The position numbers and the translations under genes are program-made. Source: Prevotella sp. (GTDB taxonomy: Bacteria; Bacteroidota; Bacteroidia; Bacteroidales; Bacteroidaceae). From it: a stretch of DNA of 64,000 nt. The stretch spans positions 1-64,000 of the forward strand of contig JAFZAP010000083.1 in assembly GCA_017557185.1 (NCBI GenBank), written 5' to 3'. Positions 9-64,000 of the stretch are shown here, piece after piece (positions within the stretch are counted from its first letter, which is position 1; each line of letters opens with the position of its first letter). Under the pieces are notes generated by a model, which was not told the origin of the DNA, made no database searches, and saw only the letters and a program-made list of their open reading frames with translations.

Positions 9-118
9 CAATACTATAGCCATTTCAGAGCATTCTTCCAGCCACACGAAAGCACTGCTCCGGTCACACGAAAGCACTACTCTAGTCATACGAAAACACT
101 GTTCCCCGCCACATTAAC
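9..118. repeat. 22-nt periodic repeat array, copy 1
   Basis: Five consecutive 22-nt units (9-30, 31-52, 53-74, 75-96, 97-118) share a loose pattern: CANTGCTCC, a short variable part, then CACACGAAAG. The first unit matches 30910-30931 in the same register, and the third unit starts like 57759-57780. The period is not a multiple of three, so it is not a coding repeat. Units diverge too much and have no spacers, so it is not CRISPR. Confidence 0.6.
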
Positions 119-231
119 CATCATTAACGCAGCGAAATTGCCCGTTTTTGCACACGTTACGAAAAAGCGCACTATATTAGGACACTGTGTAAGCCAGAAG
201 AGTTGCACCCGCTGCACCGGCGACACCGAGC
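104..231 (+). repeat. Left arm of island-flanking imperfect inverted repeat
   Basis: This stretch matches the reverse complement of 5311-5440. Shared blocks include ACATTAACC, CACTATATTA, GACACT and GTTGCACCC followed by GCACCGGCGACACCGAGC. The middle is poorly conserved and the end near 231 is nearly exact. The two arms enclose the five-gene accessory region. It could mark an island boundary, or be two copies of a dispersed intergenic element. Confidence 0.6.
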
Positions 232-263
232 CTACCCCCAGCCCCTCCCTGAAGGGAAGGGAG
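232..263 (+). repeat. GC-rich palindromic repeat (CCCTCCC..GGGAAGGG type)
   Basis: The run CCCCTCCCTGAAGGGAAGGG can fold into a short hairpin. Relatives occur near 10456, 18380, 38648, 38742, 38964, 40879, 42024, 51540, 52632 and 52741. This copy is intergenic. Confidence 0.6.
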
Positions 264-868: not shown

Positions 869-1990
869 ATGGCAAATACTAACCTTGCAAATGCAAAGAC
901 AGCGAAGAACGACGAGTTCTATACGCAATATCCTGATATACAGAAGGAGATAAACGCCTATTTGGATTACGACCCGAACGTGTTTCGTGGAAAGACTGTG
1001 TTGTTGCCGTGCGATGACCCTGAGTGGAGCAACTTCACGAAATTCTTTGCCCAGAATTTTGAACTACTTGGCTTGAAGAAACTCATCTCTACAAGCTATG
1101 CCCCAGAGTCGAAGAAGTACAAGATGCCATATCAGCCAACTCTCTTTGAGACACAGCAACCGTACTTCAATCCAGACAAGAGCAAAACTAATGGAAAGAT
1201 ATTCGTGCTGACCCGTGATGTGACAGGCGACAATCGTATTGACATTAACGACTTAGAATGGCAATACTTGGAGGGTGATGGTGATTTCCGTAGTAAGGAG
1301 ATTAGGAATTTGCGAGACGAAGCAGATATTATCGTAACAAATCCACCGTTCTCGCTGTTTAGGGAATTTCTTGCATGGATAATGGAGGCAGACAAGAAGT
1401 TCTTGATAATTGGTAATATAAACGCAATAGCATATAAGGAAGTGTTTCCATTAATTATGAAGAATAAAATATGGACAGGATGTAGATTCAACAAGAGAGT
1501 CAATGGCAAAAACATGACCTTCCTCGTTCCGGATTATTATGAAATGAGTGGAACAGAGCTTTATATGGATGAGCACGGTAATAAGTTTATCAGCGTTGCA
1601 GGAACTGGATGGTTCACTAATCTTGAACATGGACGTCGTCACGAGCCATTACGATTAATGACAATGGCAGAAAACTTCAAGCATAGTAAACATAAAGAGG
1701 TCAGAGGTAGAAAAGATTATGAGCATTATGTTAATTATGATGCAATTGAAATCCCATTTACTGATGCTATTCCAAGCGATTACGAAGGGACTATGGGCGT
1801 TCCTATTTCATTCATTGACAAGTATTGTCCTGAACAATTTGAAATAATTGGCATTGGTCTTGAACTTGCCAATATGGATATTATCAAGAAGAAACTTGGC
1901 AAGCTAAATGGTGGTCCCCGACTTTATGTTGAACGAGACGGCGAGCTTGTAAGGCTATACGAAAGAATACTAATCCGCAAAAAACAATAG
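869..1990 (+). CDS. Adenine-specific DNA methyltransferase, EcoRI family
   Basis: This 373-residue protein looks like the EcoRI-type N6-adenine methyltransferase family. The N-terminal KNDEFYTQ segment is typical of that family. VLLPCDDPEW (about 44-53) is the likely S-adenosylmethionine site and NPPF (158-161) is the catalytic motif. The length fits a complete enzyme. It probably methylates adenine in a short DNA site and protects the host from a partner nuclease. The next gene begins 4 nt after its stop and encodes a DUF262-HNH protein rather than an EcoRI-type endonuclease, so the pair would be an unusual restriction-modification arrangement. The second half is more AT-rich than the chromosome around it, which suggests transfer. 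The target site cannot be read from the sequence. Confidence 0.85.
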   Translation: MANTNLANAKTAKNDEFYTQYPDIQKEINAYLDYDPNVFRGKTVLLPCDDPEWSNFTKFFAQNFELLGLKKLISTSYAPESKKYKMPYQPTLFETQQPYFNPDKSKTNGKIFVLTRDVTGDNRIDINDLEWQYLEGDGDFRSKEIRNLRDEADIIVTNPPFSLFREFLAWIMEADKKFLIIGNINAIAYKEVFPLIMKNKIWTGCRFNKRVNGKNMTFLVPDYYEMSGTELYMDEHGNKFISVAGTGWFTNLEHGRRHEPLRLMTMAENFKHSKHKEVRGRKDYEHYVNYDAIEIPFTDAIPSDYEGTMGVPISFIDKYCPEQFEIIGIGLELANMDIIKKKLGKLNGGPRLYVERDGELVRLYERILIRKKQ

Positions 1991-1993
1991 CTT

Positions 1994-3163
1994 ATGAAAA
2001 CCGAACTAAAGATATATACCGTCGAGCAGATTTGCGACGGATTCGAGTATAACGAGCTGGAAGGCAAAGGCCTTTATGGCTTGGCCGGACAACTGACCAT
2101 TCAGCCTGAATATCAGCGCAACTACATTTATGCCGATGGCAAAAAAGATGTGGCTGTTATTGAGTCTGTGCTGAAGGGCTATCCTTTGGGACTAATCTAC
2201 TTCAACCGTAAGGATGATGGAAGGTTGGAAGTTCTCGATGGACAACAGCGTATTACTTCACTTGGTCGCTTCTTGAAGAACAAGTTTGCGGTGAAGATAA
2301 ATGGTTTGGAGCAAATCTTTGATGGTCTGAACGAAGGGCAAGCGCAGATAATCCTCAAGACGGAACTTTTGGTATATATCTGCGAGGGCGAGGGAGAACA
2401 TGCGGAAGAGGAAATCAAGGAGTGGTTCAAAACCATCAACATTGCAGGTATTCCGCTAAATGAGCAAGAAGAACTTAACGCCATCTATTCTGGTCCATTT
2501 GTTACGCTGTGCAAAGCAGAGTTTTCGAACTCACAAAATGCTAATATTCAGCGCTGGGAGAGTTTCGTGAAAGGTCCGGCTAATCGTCAGCAGTTCCTGG
2601 CCACTGCTCTGAAATGGGTAAGTAAGGGAAATGTCGATGGCTACATGAGTGTCCATCGCAAAGACACGAACATCAACGAGATAAAGACTTACTTCAATAC
2701 CGTTATTGATTGGGCAGACAATATCTTCAACGACATCTATTCTGAGATGCAAGGTTTGAACTGGGGTGACCTTTACGAACGTTTCCATTCCAATGCATAT
2801 AACCACAACGAGGTGTCGGCAAAGGTGGCAGAGTTGTTCCAAGATGACTTCGTGTCAGATCATAAGGGCATATTTGAATATGTGCTTGGTGGCTGTCAGG
2901 ACACCAAGTTACTGAATGTGCGTCTGTTTGACAAACCCACCATGCGCAAGGTGTATCAGCTACAGACAGAAAAGGCAAAGGCAGAAGGAATAAGCAACTG
3001 TCCTTATTGTGCAGAAGGTCATGAGGCCAACAGACAACGCATCTGGAAACCCGAAGAAATGGATGCAGACCACGTTACTGCTTGGAGTAAGGGTGGTGCG
3101 ACGTCAATAGATAATTGCCAGATGCTGTGCAAGACTCATAACAGAATGAAAGGAAATAGATGA
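1994..3163 (+). CDS. DUF262 and HNH domain protein, probable nuclease
   Basis: The N-terminal DUF262 (ParB/Srx-like) domain is marked by QPEYQRNY (37-44) and DGQQRITSL (82-90). The C-terminus is an HNH nuclease domain with Cys336/Cys339, DADH (357-360), NCQMLC (374-379) and HN (382-383). DUF262 proteins with nuclease tails are known in modification-dependent restriction (GmrSD) and phosphorothioate-linked defence (SspE), where DUF262 uses nucleotide hydrolysis. Here the tail is a compact four-cysteine HNH rather than DUF1524. The gene starts 4 nt after the methyltransferase and is surely co-transcribed. The likely role is the cleaving partner of that enzyme, either as classical restriction or as a sensor of foreign DNA; this is inference. 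Confidence 0.8.
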   Translation: MKTELKIYTVEQICDGFEYNELEGKGLYGLAGQLTIQPEYQRNYIYADGKKDVAVIESVLKGYPLGLIYFNRKDDGRLEVLDGQQRITSLGRFLKNKFAVKINGLEQIFDGLNEGQAQIILKTELLVYICEGEGEHAEEEIKEWFKTINIAGIPLNEQEELNAIYSGPFVTLCKAEFSNSQNANIQRWESFVKGPANRQQFLATALKWVSKGNVDGYMSVHRKDTNINEIKTYFNTVIDWADNIFNDIYSEMQGLNWGDLYERFHSNAYNHNEVSAKVAELFQDDFVSDHKGIFEYVLGGCQDTKLLNVRLFDKPTMRKVYQLQTEKAKAEGISNCPYCAEGHEANRQRIWKPEEMDADHVTAWSKGGATSIDNCQMLCKTHNRMKGNR

Positions 3164-3175
3164 AATGAATCATAT

Positions 3176-3988
3176 ATGATACAGCTATTAAAGAACTATT
3201 GGTGGGCTTTTCTTTTATTACTTATTGCACCACTTCTTGTCAATGTTATTCTAATAACAGACTCACCATGCCCAAATTACACTGCTAACAACAGCAATGG
3301 GTGGCTAGGCTTTTGGGGAGCATATATAGGCGCGCTTTTCCCTTTTATTATTTTGTTAATAACAATTTGGGACACTCATAAAGAAAACAAAAAAGACAGA
3401 AGTATCCAGGTTGCGACAATAGAATACCAAGTATCGAAAGAACACCTAAATACTATCAAGAAAACTATTGCGGACTATATACAATCCTTAAATATAATGG
3501 AATTGGGACTTATAGCAATACGACCAAATATCAATACAGGTAATTCCTTAAATAGAATCTGGAATATTTGCCAAAGTACGGTTTCATCTTATGAATTGCT
3601 GGAGTTTGAATTAGTTGATTATGATGACGAAAAAGAAAAAGAATATAAACAATTCTTGGTAAAATTCAAAACCGAATATGAAGGGATGATAAAGGACTTT
3701 GGTTGGGTTTTGGATTTTTATTTATATAAAAAAGAAAATGTCGATATTGGTAAAGAGTTGGTAGTGTACCGTAAGAAAGAATTGAATTTAGTGAATGTAT
3801 ATGACGAAAATAAGAGAATCTGGGCTATAGTAGGAAAAGATAATTGCAATATAGTAGAAAAAGGAAGCGAAATTTTGAGAGAATTGCTTGAGAGACTCGT
3901 ATTCAAATCTATTTATTCTAAATCAATAGAGTTTGTAAAATATGAAAAAGAGAAAATGGATAATAATCTTAAAAAAGCAAGTGAATAA
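3176..3988 (+). CDS. Two-transmembrane protein of unknown function in the defence-like operon
   Basis: The 270-residue protein has two N-terminal membrane segments (about 9-28 and 46-65). The second begins GFWGAYIGALF, a small-residue pattern seen in many two-TM hypothetical proteins, some annotated as phage-abortive-infection-like. A charged, lysine- and glutamate-rich cytoplasmic part of about 200 residues follows. No catalytic motif was recognised. The gene lies 12 nt after the DUF262-HNH gene and 3 nt before the GIY-YIG gene, so it belongs to the operon. It is clearly more AT-rich than neighbouring chromosomal genes. A membrane effector or anchor is possible but not shown. Confidence 0.7.
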   Translation: MIQLLKNYWWAFLLLLIAPLLVNVILITDSPCPNYTANNSNGWLGFWGAYIGALFPFIILLITIWDTHKENKKDRSIQVATIEYQVSKEHLNTIKKTIADYIQSLNIMELGLIAIRPNINTGNSLNRIWNICQSTVSSYELLEFELVDYDDEKEKEYKQFLVKFKTEYEGMIKDFGWVLDFYLYKKENVDIGKELVVYRKKELNLVNVYDENKRIWAIVGKDNCNIVEKGSEILRELLERLVFKSIYSKSIEFVKYEKEKMDNNLKKASE

Positions 3989-3991
3989 TTT

Positions 3992-4621
3992 ATGGAATAC
4001 GGAATAGTTTATTTATTAACCAATCCTGTAATGCCTGGTCTTGTAAAGATTGGCATGACAACACAGGAGGATATAGACAAAAGGATGAAGGAACTCTATA
4101 CAACTGGCGTTCCTGTTCCCTTTGAGTGTCAGTTTGCTTGCAAGGTAAAGAAAGGCGACTGTGCCAAGATTGAGAAAGCCCTACATACGGCTTTTGCTCC
4201 ACAGCGCATCAATGCTAACCGTGAGTTCTTCCGTATTCAAGCGGAACAGGCAAAGGCCATTCTTGAATTGTTCCACCATACTGACGTGACGGAAGAAGTA
4301 AGCGACGAAATACAGAATGACTTGACCGATGATGATAAGGCAGCATCAGTTAAGGCTCAGGTTCACAGACCTCCGCTCAACTTCTATGAAATGGGGATGC
4401 AAAAAGGCGATGTTCTGATATGGAAAGATGATCCATCGATTTCTGTTGCAATTATTTCGGAGCGTAAAATAAGTTATGAAGGAGAGGAGACTTCTATCAG
4501 TGCTCTCTCTGCTCAATTAAAGGGCTACAAGTCCAAACATATTGCTCCAGGTGCCCATTGGCTATATAATGACAAATTGTTGAGTGATATTTATGACGAA
4601 ACCTATCCTTTTGAAGATTAA
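3992..4621 (+). CDS. GIY-YIG nuclease-family protein (T5orf172/MUG113-like)
   Basis: The first 90 residues show the GIY-YIG-like fold of the T5orf172/MUG113 group: GIVYLLTN (4-11), GLVKIGMT (16-23), a following Arg in KRMKEL, and KIEKALH further on with the usual acidic residue. The last 110 residues resemble a small SAD/DUF-type accessory domain with no motif I can name. The family includes homing and phage-associated nucleases. The gene starts 3 nt after the membrane-protein stop, so it is the fourth member of the operon. It may be a second nuclease or a DNA-binding module. Confidence 0.75.
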   Translation: MEYGIVYLLTNPVMPGLVKIGMTTQEDIDKRMKELYTTGVPVPFECQFACKVKKGDCAKIEKALHTAFAPQRINANREFFRIQAEQAKAILELFHHTDVTEEVSDEIQNDLTDDDKAASVKAQVHRPPLNFYEMGMQKGDVLIWKDDPSISVAIISERKISYEGEETSISALSAQLKGYKSKHIAPGAHWLYNDKLLSDIYDETYPFED

Positions 4622-4648
4622 ATATGGTTGTTTTACAGATATTATTTG

Positions 4649-4656
4649 TACCTTTG
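4649..4656 (+). promoter_or_regulatory. -7 box for the zinc-ribbon gene
   Basis: TACCTTTG lies 30 nt before the ATG at 4687, after the GIY-YIG stop. The zinc-ribbon gene is therefore probably transcribed separately from the operon. Confidence 0.6.
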
Positions 4657-4686
4657 CCCTCGAGAACAATTGTAAAATGAGAAAAT

Positions 4687-5187
4687 ATGAAGAAAAGGTA
4701 TGAATCAATTGAGAAGCCGGACAAGTGCCCTAAATGTGGGGCGCCTGTGTATCGGATACTATATGGGTTACCAGTGATGTCGGAAGAAGAGTACTTCAAG
4801 ACTTATCATGATCATGTCATCTATGGCGGATGCTGTATTTCCGAAGACGATCCTGAATGGGCCTGTAGCAAGTGTGGTGCGGAGATTTACAACGCTGCGC
4901 ACATTCCATTTAAAAAGAAAGATGCATTTGCTAAGTTGGATGCTATGTTGAGCGAGGAGGAGAAGAATGAAATGGCTAAGGGAGATTCTATTGAATATCA
5001 TTTCTCGCTAGGGCTGTGGATTCGGAATAACTGGATATATGAGCAGGATGAGGAATATGTAAAGCTCTTAGCGGAAATGTTTGGTGATGAGTTTCCGTTC
5101 TTTGATCCTGATAATCTATCTGACAGAATCATCAAGTCATATCAGCGACATCTAAGGGGATTGAAGAAAAAGATGCAGGACCAATGA
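4687..5187 (+). CDS. Zinc-ribbon protein with C-terminal DUF6794-like domain
   Basis: The N-terminal half has two CxxC knuckles (Cys14/Cys17 and Cys60/Cys63) that would hold one zinc ion. The C-terminal 60 residues match the DUF6794 pattern: GLWIRNNW, an acidic middle, then a DNLSDRIIKSYQRHLRG-type ending. Proteins with that C-terminal pattern are common in Bacteroidetes and have no established function. The gene has its own promoter and terminator. It lies just inside the right arm of the inverted repeat, so it is part of the same inserted segment, though its link to the defence-like operon is unproven. Confidence 0.65.
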   Translation: MKKRYESIEKPDKCPKCGAPVYRILYGLPVMSEEEYFKTYHDHVIYGGCCISEDDPEWACSKCGAEIYNAAHIPFKKKDAFAKLDAMLSEEEKNEMAKGDSIEYHFSLGLWIRNNWIYEQDEEYVKLLAEMFGDEFPFFDPDNLSDRIIKSYQRHLRGLKKKMQDQ

Positions 5188-5208: not shown

Positions 5209-5310
5209 ATCTGAACTTTTCACTCGACGGGTGTTGTCGGTGCTATAGGTAATCTCCTATATCATTTTATACCATTTTTCACTATTCACTTTTCACTTCG
5301 CGCTTACGCG

Positions 5311-5440
5311 GCTCGGTGTCGCCGGTGCTACGGGTGCAACTTGTTTTGATTAACATAGTGTCATAATATAGTGAGTTTGGAGCAAACCACCAAAGAAACA
5401 GCACTTTCCCGCAAGTTAATGTTGGTTAATGTAGCAGGGG
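5311..5440 (-). repeat. Right arm of island-flanking inverted repeat
   Basis: This is the reverse-complement partner of 104-231. Just before it (about 5269-5300) is a simple TTCACTATTCACTTTTCAC-type repeat. The arm ends 6 nt before the stop codon of the next, oppositely oriented gene. Confidence 0.6.
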
Positions 5441-62739: not shown

Positions 62740-63082
62740 CTCACATTTCAAAGTTGCACCCATTTTGCACCCAATTCTATGCTCCATATAGGGCTTGCAC
62801 CCATTCCTTTGCAGAATTAACAGTTCTAAATCCTGCAAAAGATAATTTTTGCAGAGTGTTGTCAATTTCTAATGTTGACAAGTTGAAAATGCTTATGGGA
62901 TTTCAACTGTCAACCATAGATAATCTGCAGTTTATTATGTACTTTGCCAGATTTTCGCTACCTTTGCACCTGAAAGCATCAAGAGCAGTCATCTTCGGAT
63001 GGACTCGCCAACCGAGCTTAACTTTGCCACGGTGGTCAGTACGATGCGGGAGTAACATTATTCACTTCAAAAACAAAAAGTT
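62740..63082. other. Gene-free stretch after tRNA-Asn
   Basis: Three copies of TTGCACCCA lie at about 62753-62800. An ORF of 131 codons crosses the stretch, but it overlaps the terminator-proximal repeats, contains the promoter of the next gene and has no protein-like composition, so it is not called. Confidence 0.5.
62959..62966 (+). promoter_or_regulatory. -7 box of the 85-codon ORF
   Basis: TACCTTTG, followed by a leader of about 115 nt to the ATG at 63083. Confidence 0.5.
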
Positions 63083-63340
63083 ATGCAACAGCACATTTAT
63101 TACATTCGTTATGCTCTGCAATTCGCAGACATGCAGATTCCCAAGTTAGTAACCGTTTTCAACGCCCAGGTGCAAAGCCGAGGCTGGTCCAGTATGCGAG
63201 CCTATCACGACCAGGCACTCCTTGATGAGTTCCAGCGTCGTGGCATCGATACTACTGCCGTTTATGATGGAGAAACCATTTCTTTCGCCCATCCTGTCAG
63301 CTACGACCTACCAAACAACAAATTGGTAATAATCAACTGA
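63083..63340 (+). CDS. Small conserved-looking protein of unknown function
   Basis: The 85-residue product is soluble and mixed in composition. It has QVQSRGWSSMRAYHDQALLDEF, then RRGIDTTAVYDGETISFAHPV and a short C-terminal strand. No known domain was recognised. It has a promoter (62959) and a strong terminator (63353-63385). It stands between tRNA-Asn and a leftward helicase/nuclease-like gene and may belong to the accessory segment starting there. Confidence 0.6.
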   Translation: MQQHIYYIRYALQFADMQIPKLVTVFNAQVQSRGWSSMRAYHDQALLDEFQRRGIDTTAVYDGETISFAHPVSYDLPNNKLVIIN

Positions 63341-63410: not shown

Positions 63411-64000
63411 TCACGCTGACTTTATCATCTCCATCATATCGTCCACATAACCATCGTTAAGTTGGAACAGTACGTGGTTCTCATGGAACTTCTCTAATTG
63501 ACCTTCGGGCCAAAAATCGACCTGTCTATAATCAGTATTGCTGATGATGAAACTGTTCAAGGCGATATCCTTATCTCCTAATGTAGGCTCAATGACATCC
63601 TTCAGATACTTGTATAGCTGAATTTTTTCATCCTCCATACCATGCAGATGACTGATACCCTTGGGGTCGATAAAGTTCACATACTGTTTCCTGCCTTCAC
63701 GAATCCAGAGGATGAAGTCTGGATAGAAACCGGCATTCTCGAAGAAGCCGATACCCTTACGGCTGACATTGCGAAGCAGATAGATTTCGCGTTCTTCGCC
63801 ATGCTGCTGATAATAGCGTTGAAGGTCATTAATGAACTTACGCTCACCTTTGTTTACTGCCACAGGATAAATCTGCACCTCCTGACCCTCGCCTGGCTTG
63901 AAATTCTCGCTGAGGAACATCACAGGATTGAATAGATGCTGGGCAAAGTACAGAGCCTCGAAGTTCTCATTTTCAATACGACGCAATCCGTTCAGCGTAC
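63411..64000 (-). CDS. C-terminal part of a helicase/restriction-subunit-like protein (truncated by the window edge)
   Basis: The reading frame is open to the window edge, so only the last 196 or so residues are seen. They contain RRIENENFEALYFAQHLFNPV and a PD-(D/E)XK-like nuclease signature: FYPDFILWIREGRKQYVNFIDPKG (cut in two: PDFILWI, then FIDPKG). This layout resembles the C-terminus of type III restriction Res subunits or DEAD/DEAH helicases with a nuclease tail. The helicase motifs would lie outside the window, so the call is provisional. It starts a second possible defence segment beside tRNA-Asn. Confidence 0.65.
   Translation of the reverse strand, partial: TLNGLRRIENENFEALYFAQHLFNPVMFLSENFKPGEGQEVQIYPVAVNKGERKFINDLQRYYQQHGEEREIYLLRNVSRKGIGFFENAGFYPDFILWIREGRKQYVNFIDPKGISHLHGMEDEKIQLYKYLKDVIEPTLGDKDIALNSFIISNTDYRQVDFWPEGQLEKFHENHVLFQLNDGYVDDMMEMIKSA

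Follow-up and report, generated by a model that had tools for sequence, protein, structure and literature searches.

The stretch of DNA analysed here (the window; 64,000 nt, positions 1 to 64,000 of contig JAFZAP010000083.1, Prevotella sp., assembly GCA_017557185.1) carries a predicted restriction-modification pair that is headed by a large structured RNA. Four genes run head to tail on the forward strand with gaps of 3, 12 and 3 nt. They encode an adenine methyltransferase of the EcoRI family (869-1990), a DUF262 (GmrSD_N)-HNH protein predicted to be its restriction endonuclease partner (1994-3163), a two-transmembrane (two-TM) protein (3176-3988) and a GIY-YIG (T5orf172) protein (3992-4621); a DUF6794 gene follows on the same strand (4687-5187; Pfam, 1.6e-15). 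This layout had been described in a sequence-only reading of the window and is borne out by our ORF calls and by Pfam, NCBIfam and PADLOC. The genes are real, but that reading began at the methyltransferase ATG and so omitted the 324 bases in front of it (545-868), which encode the leader RNA.

The methyltransferase is well matched by Pfam (EcoRI_methylase, PF13651, 6.6e-129), and its NPPF motif is invariant in all 61 sequences compared, that of the window included. The second protein combines GmrSD_N/DUF262 (PF03235, 2.9e-21) with an HNH domain (PF01844, 4.1e-9); DGQQR and HNH residues are conserved in its homologues, as are the four cysteines of the HNH tail (Cys336, Cys339 and Cys379 with 100%, Cys375 with 95% identity; n=60, window included). 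PF13651 was matched in 83 of 298 related genomes, and among those listed we hand-picked 60 methyltransferase loci, mostly full-length matches (61 with the window). A DUF262-HNH homologue is found within 2 kb downstream of the methyltransferase in 59 of the 60. At L048, L054 and L073, 0.8-1.8 kb separates the two genes, and at L079 no such homologue was present within 2 kb downstream. The module had been put forward as possibly undescribed, which does not hold for the pair: type II models of PADLOC already match both the methyltransferase (MTase_II, 3.6e-92) and the DUF262-HNH protein (REase_II, 2.9e-80), the latter over nearly its whole length, so that the pair counts as type II-like in that database. 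We thus predict a type II-like restriction-modification pair, which by itself is ordinary-looking. With EcoRI-family type II systems it shares the methyltransferase family and a nearby candidate endonuclease, but here the partner is a DUF262-HNH protein and a large structured leader precedes the pair. GmrSD, BrxU and SspE (DUF262 plus DUF1524) likewise have a DUF262 N-terminal domain with DGQQR and an HNH-type C-terminal nuclease, whereas the protein of the window carries a PF01844 HNH domain with four conserved cysteines and has a methyltransferase alongside. Pfam gave no PF07510/DUF1524 match in it at E values up to 0.1, and membership in the GmrSD/SspE group was rejected for want of this domain; comparison with the solved DUF262 protein 7p9k yielded an E value of only 0.27.

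Folding of region 540-870 gave -122.8 kcal/mol (z -8.0). A Bacteroidales-type -7 promoter box, TATCTTTG, lies at 544-551, and from its position we place the RNA start at about 555, giving a leader of 555-868. The consensus TAnnTTTG, which we take to be the promoter box of the Bacteroidales, occurs within 110 nt upstream of the RNA 5' strand in 42 of 45 leaders of EcoRI-type loci and in 72 of 84 others, against 8.2% in shuffled sequences. A leader of about 310 nt would be unusual, given that the 5' untranslated regions of B. thetaiotaomicron have a median length of 32 nt and exceed 100 nt in 13.5% of cases, according to a passage in PMC7366714. In the predicted structure, helix P1 is formed by the strands AGCATTAGCTATTA (585-598) and GATTGATAGTCAATGC (823-838), and encloses P2 (603-611 with 781-789) and a third helix, the kissing-loop/P3 contact between GCCTAGGAA (618-626) and TTCCTAGGC (764-772). 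The first part of the P1 3' strand doubles as the 5' arm of an alternative hairpin, whose 3' arm, ACTATCAATC (852-861), ends 7 nt before the ATG.

By BLAST and alignment, most of the 60 loci carry a related sequence immediately in front of the methyltransferase. This sequence comes in two forms, which we call type A (that of the window) and type B. After removal of mostly-gap columns, an alignment of each was folded: A1 with 29 type A sequences and A2 with 15 type B sequences, from which we had dropped L066 (type B only by a loose pattern) and L042 (near-identical to L043). The type A structure has 52 pairs, 25 of them with double changes, and in type B 27 pairs show double changes. Cells with double changes amount to 103 in type A (36.9 in shuffled alignments) and 66 in type B (25.5), and none of 500 shuffles reached either value. 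Nor did any of the 500 match the observed double-change counts, covariation score or percentage paired in either type; the number of further pair types in type B was reached by three of them. When the structure was slid along the alignment, the proportion of paired cells dropped from 89.5% to 29-38% (type A) and from 89.4% to 35-42% (type B). The shuffle and slide controls are somewhat biased towards the structures, which had been obtained from these very alignments of related sequences. Among the type A helices, P2 is paired in 99.2% of cells with double changes in six of nine pairs, and helix 3 in 94.1% with double changes in six of ten. P1 is paired in 95.3%, six of its 12 pairs never vary, and only two have double changes.

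The loop-loop contact was also assessed across the wider set of related RNAs described below. A 5' anchor was present in 136 of 141 RNAs given (46 of EcoRI-type loci, 90 others), and a strict motif parsed 100 of these. The reverse complement of an RNA's own loop 6-mer was found downstream in 90 of the 100, compared with 301 of 8762 cases (3.4%) for different loops taken from other members. The RNA of the window is among the 36 unparsed ones, and its loop pairing rests on the type A covariation. The alignments show the leader to be a conserved RNA with compensatory changes and a kissing contact.

R1 and R2, two sequence-only models of the leader, match directly before the methyltransferase in 46 of the 61 loci. 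Sequences from 44 of these had gone into the models; of the other two, L042 is almost the same as one of those sequences and L080 is new. The models' other matches within the same 600 kb were weak (E of at least 4e-4). Rfam 15 contains no match above gathering for 545-868 (only an antisense snoRNA at E 3.8) and none for the RNA sites of 18 loci, while an E-value-mode search at two further sites returned nothing or weak miRNA hits, the best of which (E 0.0064) fell far short of the gathering cut-off; a known Rfam RNA as the identity of the leader was rejected on these grounds. Searching by title and start of abstract, we found no paper that describes such a leader; an unnamed one among the thousands of candidate RNAs of PMC8040213 may overlap with it. 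The leader is unusual and, as an RNA, well supported, and its family has no Rfam entry. A SAM-I/IV riboswitch elsewhere in the window (62971-63084, forward strand; Rfam RF01725, 52.6 bits) is unrelated to the leader.

The RNA was also used as a starting point for surveys. The exact 21-mer AGCATTNGCTATTATTTCGCG occurs in at least 119 stretches of GTDB genomes; the taxa of these 119 are Bacteroidales or groups within, two being given only as Bacteroidia. Among the matches listed with at least 700 nt downstream, 73 of 102 have an EcoRI-family methyltransferase, which starts 231-302 nt (median 277) after the 21-mer, and DUF262-HNH is also present in 58 of 60 such loci with enough sequence; having been taken from methyltransferase leaders, the 21-mer selects this form, and some of these loci are genomes of our first set. 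A cultured carrier, Marseilla massiliensis An824 (L322), is among those with both the methyltransferase and DUF262-HNH. The models reach further: R1 was matched in 83 and R2 in 140 of the 298 genomes, often away from PF13651. From longer lists we took 100 such sites away from PF13651 (though L199 has a PF13651 fragment about 1 kb away), dropped four cut by contig ends (L168, L200, L202 and L203) and examined 96. Considering only the strand of the RNA, an open reading frame (ORF) of at least 80 codons begins near the RNA's end in 95 of them, L207 having none. When both strands were called at the first 40 sites, 39 had a downstream ORF, and the nearest one shared the strand of the RNA at 38 of these, L158 being the exception.

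Pfam was run on 94 of these 95 first genes (L246 was dropped for its size). Among the best 25 of 71 families, SNF2 (14), ResIII (12), MmeI_Mtase (9), Eco57I (9), N6_N4_Mtase (9), N6_Mtase (8), PLDc_2 (8), HsdM_N (3), Tsp45I (2) and MethyltransfD12 (2) are accompanied by families of other kinds, namely LRR_5 (4), Acyl_transf_3 (4), CsgG (3) and MBOAT (2). In PADLOC the SNF2 proteins match DrmD (13) but no less well further helicase models, BrxHI and DpdE among them; eight matches are to type IIG. By our own count from single-linkage BLAST clusters and gene annotations, 44 of the 95 first genes are of restriction or SNF2-helicase defence type, the rest being surface-type, other or unknown. These comparisons show the leader to belong to a wider Bacteroidales RNA family, whose members precede many unrelated operons of predicted restriction or SNF2-helicase type as well as some surface genes. 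This points to an RNA control that predicted anti-virus and surface genes may share.

The same genome holds three more relatives of the leader (G000:C16:24989-25214, G000:C1:30248-30440 and G000:C5:25844-26062), the first of which precedes a BspA-type LRR gene. In contrast to the forms that lead restriction genes, a sub-form of the RNA, GCA(U)UAGCUNAUUAUUUCGCACUU..., stands before surface-type genes (CsgG, BACON, LRR) at L160, L162, L163 and L166. In three genomes from outside the order, weak RNA hits (L253, L254 and G503:C1:4222916-4223407) lie about 0.5 kb from IS1595-type transposases on the opposite strand; being divergent, these transposases were rejected as downstream genes. No blastn match to the window's RNA was found among plasmids and phages, and viral contigs, scanned with one exact type B pattern only, contained no match to it.

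What might such a leader do? We consider it rather likely that the locus is a type II-like pair with two optional downstream genes, headed by a leader of about 310 nt that acts in cis on translation. According to our proposal, the control would be riboswitch-like. With P1 formed, its strand GAUUGAUAGU would be held by the 5' strand, leaving the start region free; with P1 open, the same strand would pair with ACUAUCAAUC next to the AUG and close translation of the methyltransferase; the nuclease would be shut off with it through translational coupling. The switch would be set by whatever ligand or protein stabilises the kissing-loop core, candidates being S-adenosylmethionine or S-adenosylhomocysteine (SAM/SAH), the methyltransferase itself, an infection signal or a general RNA-binding protein. 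Purine-class riboswitches that act on translation combine a closing P1 helix with a loop-loop contact. Like translational riboswitches, the leader has P1 close to the start codon, a core with a kissing loop and possibly a second hairpin that would hide the start. It differs in having no Rfam match, and restriction, helicase and surface genes are atypical for metabolite riboswitches.

Several observations are consistent with this proposal. Pairing of the 5' strand with the 75 nt that immediately precede the start, as in P1, reaches z < -2 in 45 of 46 leaders of EcoRI-type loci and in 49 of 90 others. In type A, UUGAUAGU of P1 can pair instead with ACUAUCAA a few nucleotides before the AUG; seven pairs of this alternative hairpin are unchanged in 26-29 of 29 sequences and hence nearly invariant. 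The consensus energies of type A are close, at -103 with the hairpin versus -97 with the last 32 columns unpaired. Other results weigh against the switch or its generality. As the P1 and start-hiding strands of type A hardly vary, covariation does not prove the switch, and we infer it. In type B, start-hiding pairing is found with 10 of 16 own tails versus 48.7% with swapped tails, which is indistinguishable, and a hairpin beside the AUG attains z < -2 in only 21 of 46 leaders of EcoRI-type loci and 16 of 90 others. No leader match was obtained at 15 of the 61 methyltransferase loci, including two of the closest relatives (L055 and L064), so that the pair can exist without a leader. An R2 leader was seen at only seven of 30 MmeI-type loci (about 400 nt before the gene covered) and in six of 246 genomes drawn from the phylum, the window's own not counted.

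The leader could instead act on transcription. Attenuation or antitermination within it would then determine if RNA polymerase gets through to the methyltransferase, much as happens in terminator-type riboswitches or NusG-like leader systems. Hairpins near U-rich stretches are present in both RNA types, and 480-900 contains three terminator-like sites on both strands versus 0.4 in shuffles; yet the two hits on the RNA strand are at 716-736, in the middle of the RNA and not at its 3' end, the U-rich stretch after CACGC is often broken by C and, as read from the alignments, can pair with an upstream AUAAG-type strand, and P1 points at the start codon. We regard this explanation as unlikely.

An equally improbable alternative is that the RNA works in trans, being processed or terminated off to bind the nuclease or methyltransferase as an antitoxin, scaffold or guide, similar to AbiF/RCd22 of C. 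difficile. Size and tertiary contact of the RNA would suit a ribonucleoprotein, and a passage in PMC12373285 provides a precedent in which the upstream structured RNA of a defence gene acts both in cis and in trans. This is the nearest precedent that we found for a structured RNA leading a defence gene. In that source, AbiF-associated RCd22 and the RNAs of type III toxin-antitoxin systems (ToxIN) are likewise structured RNAs in the 5' leaders of defence genes, but the RNA described here has no repeated motifs (no direct-repeat family of at least 14 nt with two copies within 545-868), no terminator-like site at its 3' end and many unrelated downstream genes. Relatives that precede proteins as unlike as MmeI type, HsdM, SNF2 helicase, Tsp45I, LRR and acyltransferase fit one cognate protein badly, and the loci without a leader match also argue against a role in trans. 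A guide-like variable segment, sought by eye in the alignments, received no support, the variable parts reading as hairpins.

The sequence-only reading had suggested a single multi-effector system for restriction or abortive infection made up of all four genes; neighbourhood comparison largely refutes this. The spacing of the genes is tight, and the GIY-YIG protein (Pfam T5orf172 1.4e-18, MUG113 2.9e-17) belongs to a PADLOC candidate defence family (PDC-S57, 1.4e-79) seen near other restriction genes (L412, L414). The methyltransferase and DUF262-HNH genes of the proposed module are indeed conserved as a pair, but the order of the four genes is not: a homologue of the two-TM protein is absent downstream of the methyltransferase in all 60 related loci, and one of the GIY-YIG protein is near it in only four, one of these a fragment. 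In the closest relatives, DUF262-HNH is followed by genes of 251 aa (L055) or 113 aa (L064), by a lipoprotein-like gene (L058) or, with nothing in between, by GIY-YIG (L061). We therefore hold a four-gene system to be very improbable; the core consists of two genes, and the two-TM and GIY-YIG proteins are accessory and optional. The former is nearly unique to this genome: it has no family in a Pfam search and homologues in two of 169 genomes, its own and one with a weak partial match. For the latter, some match occurs in 21 of the 169. One PDC-S57 relative (L412) is near a Type_ISP_C protein, another (L414) adjoins a type I specificity protein (Methylase_S), and this accessory may travel with several restriction types. 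The DUF6794 zinc-ribbon gene has a TACCTTTG box upstream, and at L061 its close homologue comes after the GIY-YIG gene. At the window's end, an ORF on the reverse strand (63411-63986) looks by eye like the C-terminal portion of a protein of restriction or helicase type.

Phase variation is common among surface and restriction genes, GATTGATAGT...ACTATCAATC forms an inverted repeat and dispersed repeats flank the operon, but we give hardly any credence to the upstream block working as DNA, be it an operator or a recombination or phase-variation site, in view of the compensatory changes in long-range helices, the kissing contact, the promoter box upstream in most cases, the first downstream ORF lying on the RNA's strand in 38 of 39 cases, and a spacer between the hairpin arms that varies between loci and fits an RNA hairpin better than a DNA operator. 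The dispersed repeat measures about 130 nt, occurs at 95-235 (forward) and 5310-5373 (reverse) as an inverted pair around leader and operon, and has 27 matches in the draft genome, itself included. Another locus of the genome that is headed by the RNA (C16, LRR gene) has the repeats on both sides in the same way. The repeats might be mobile-cassette ends, but among the repeat-bearing stretches taken the RNA turned up only at C16.

Coming back to cis control of translation, it may be asked whether it extends to the whole family. That one kissing-loop sensor RNA family constitutes an immunity regulon of the Bacteroidales, switching translation on one common signal, is a tentative idea which we rate as doubtful. 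If true, the regulon would include restriction operons of types I, II, IIG and others, DISARM-like defence genes with SNF2 helicases and genes that act on the cell surface, and the common signal might be phage infection or a metabolite of methylation or of nucleotides. A 2025 review (PMC12707154) names, in the passages at hand, promoter methylation, methyltransferase repressors, C proteins, antisense RNA and hairpins at restriction-enzyme starts as controls of restriction; the available part of its text mentions neither riboswitch nor leader nor structured RNA. The controls known from these passages are proteins, promoter methylation, antisense RNAs and simple hairpins. If many unrelated defence operons do share a large structured leader, it would give them one point of control, bearing on the questions of how restriction operons spare a new host and how gut bacteria raise or lower their immunity. 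Its ligand, if there is one, would name the signal, and the RNA family may help to uncover new genes of defence and of the cell surface in the Bacteroidales.

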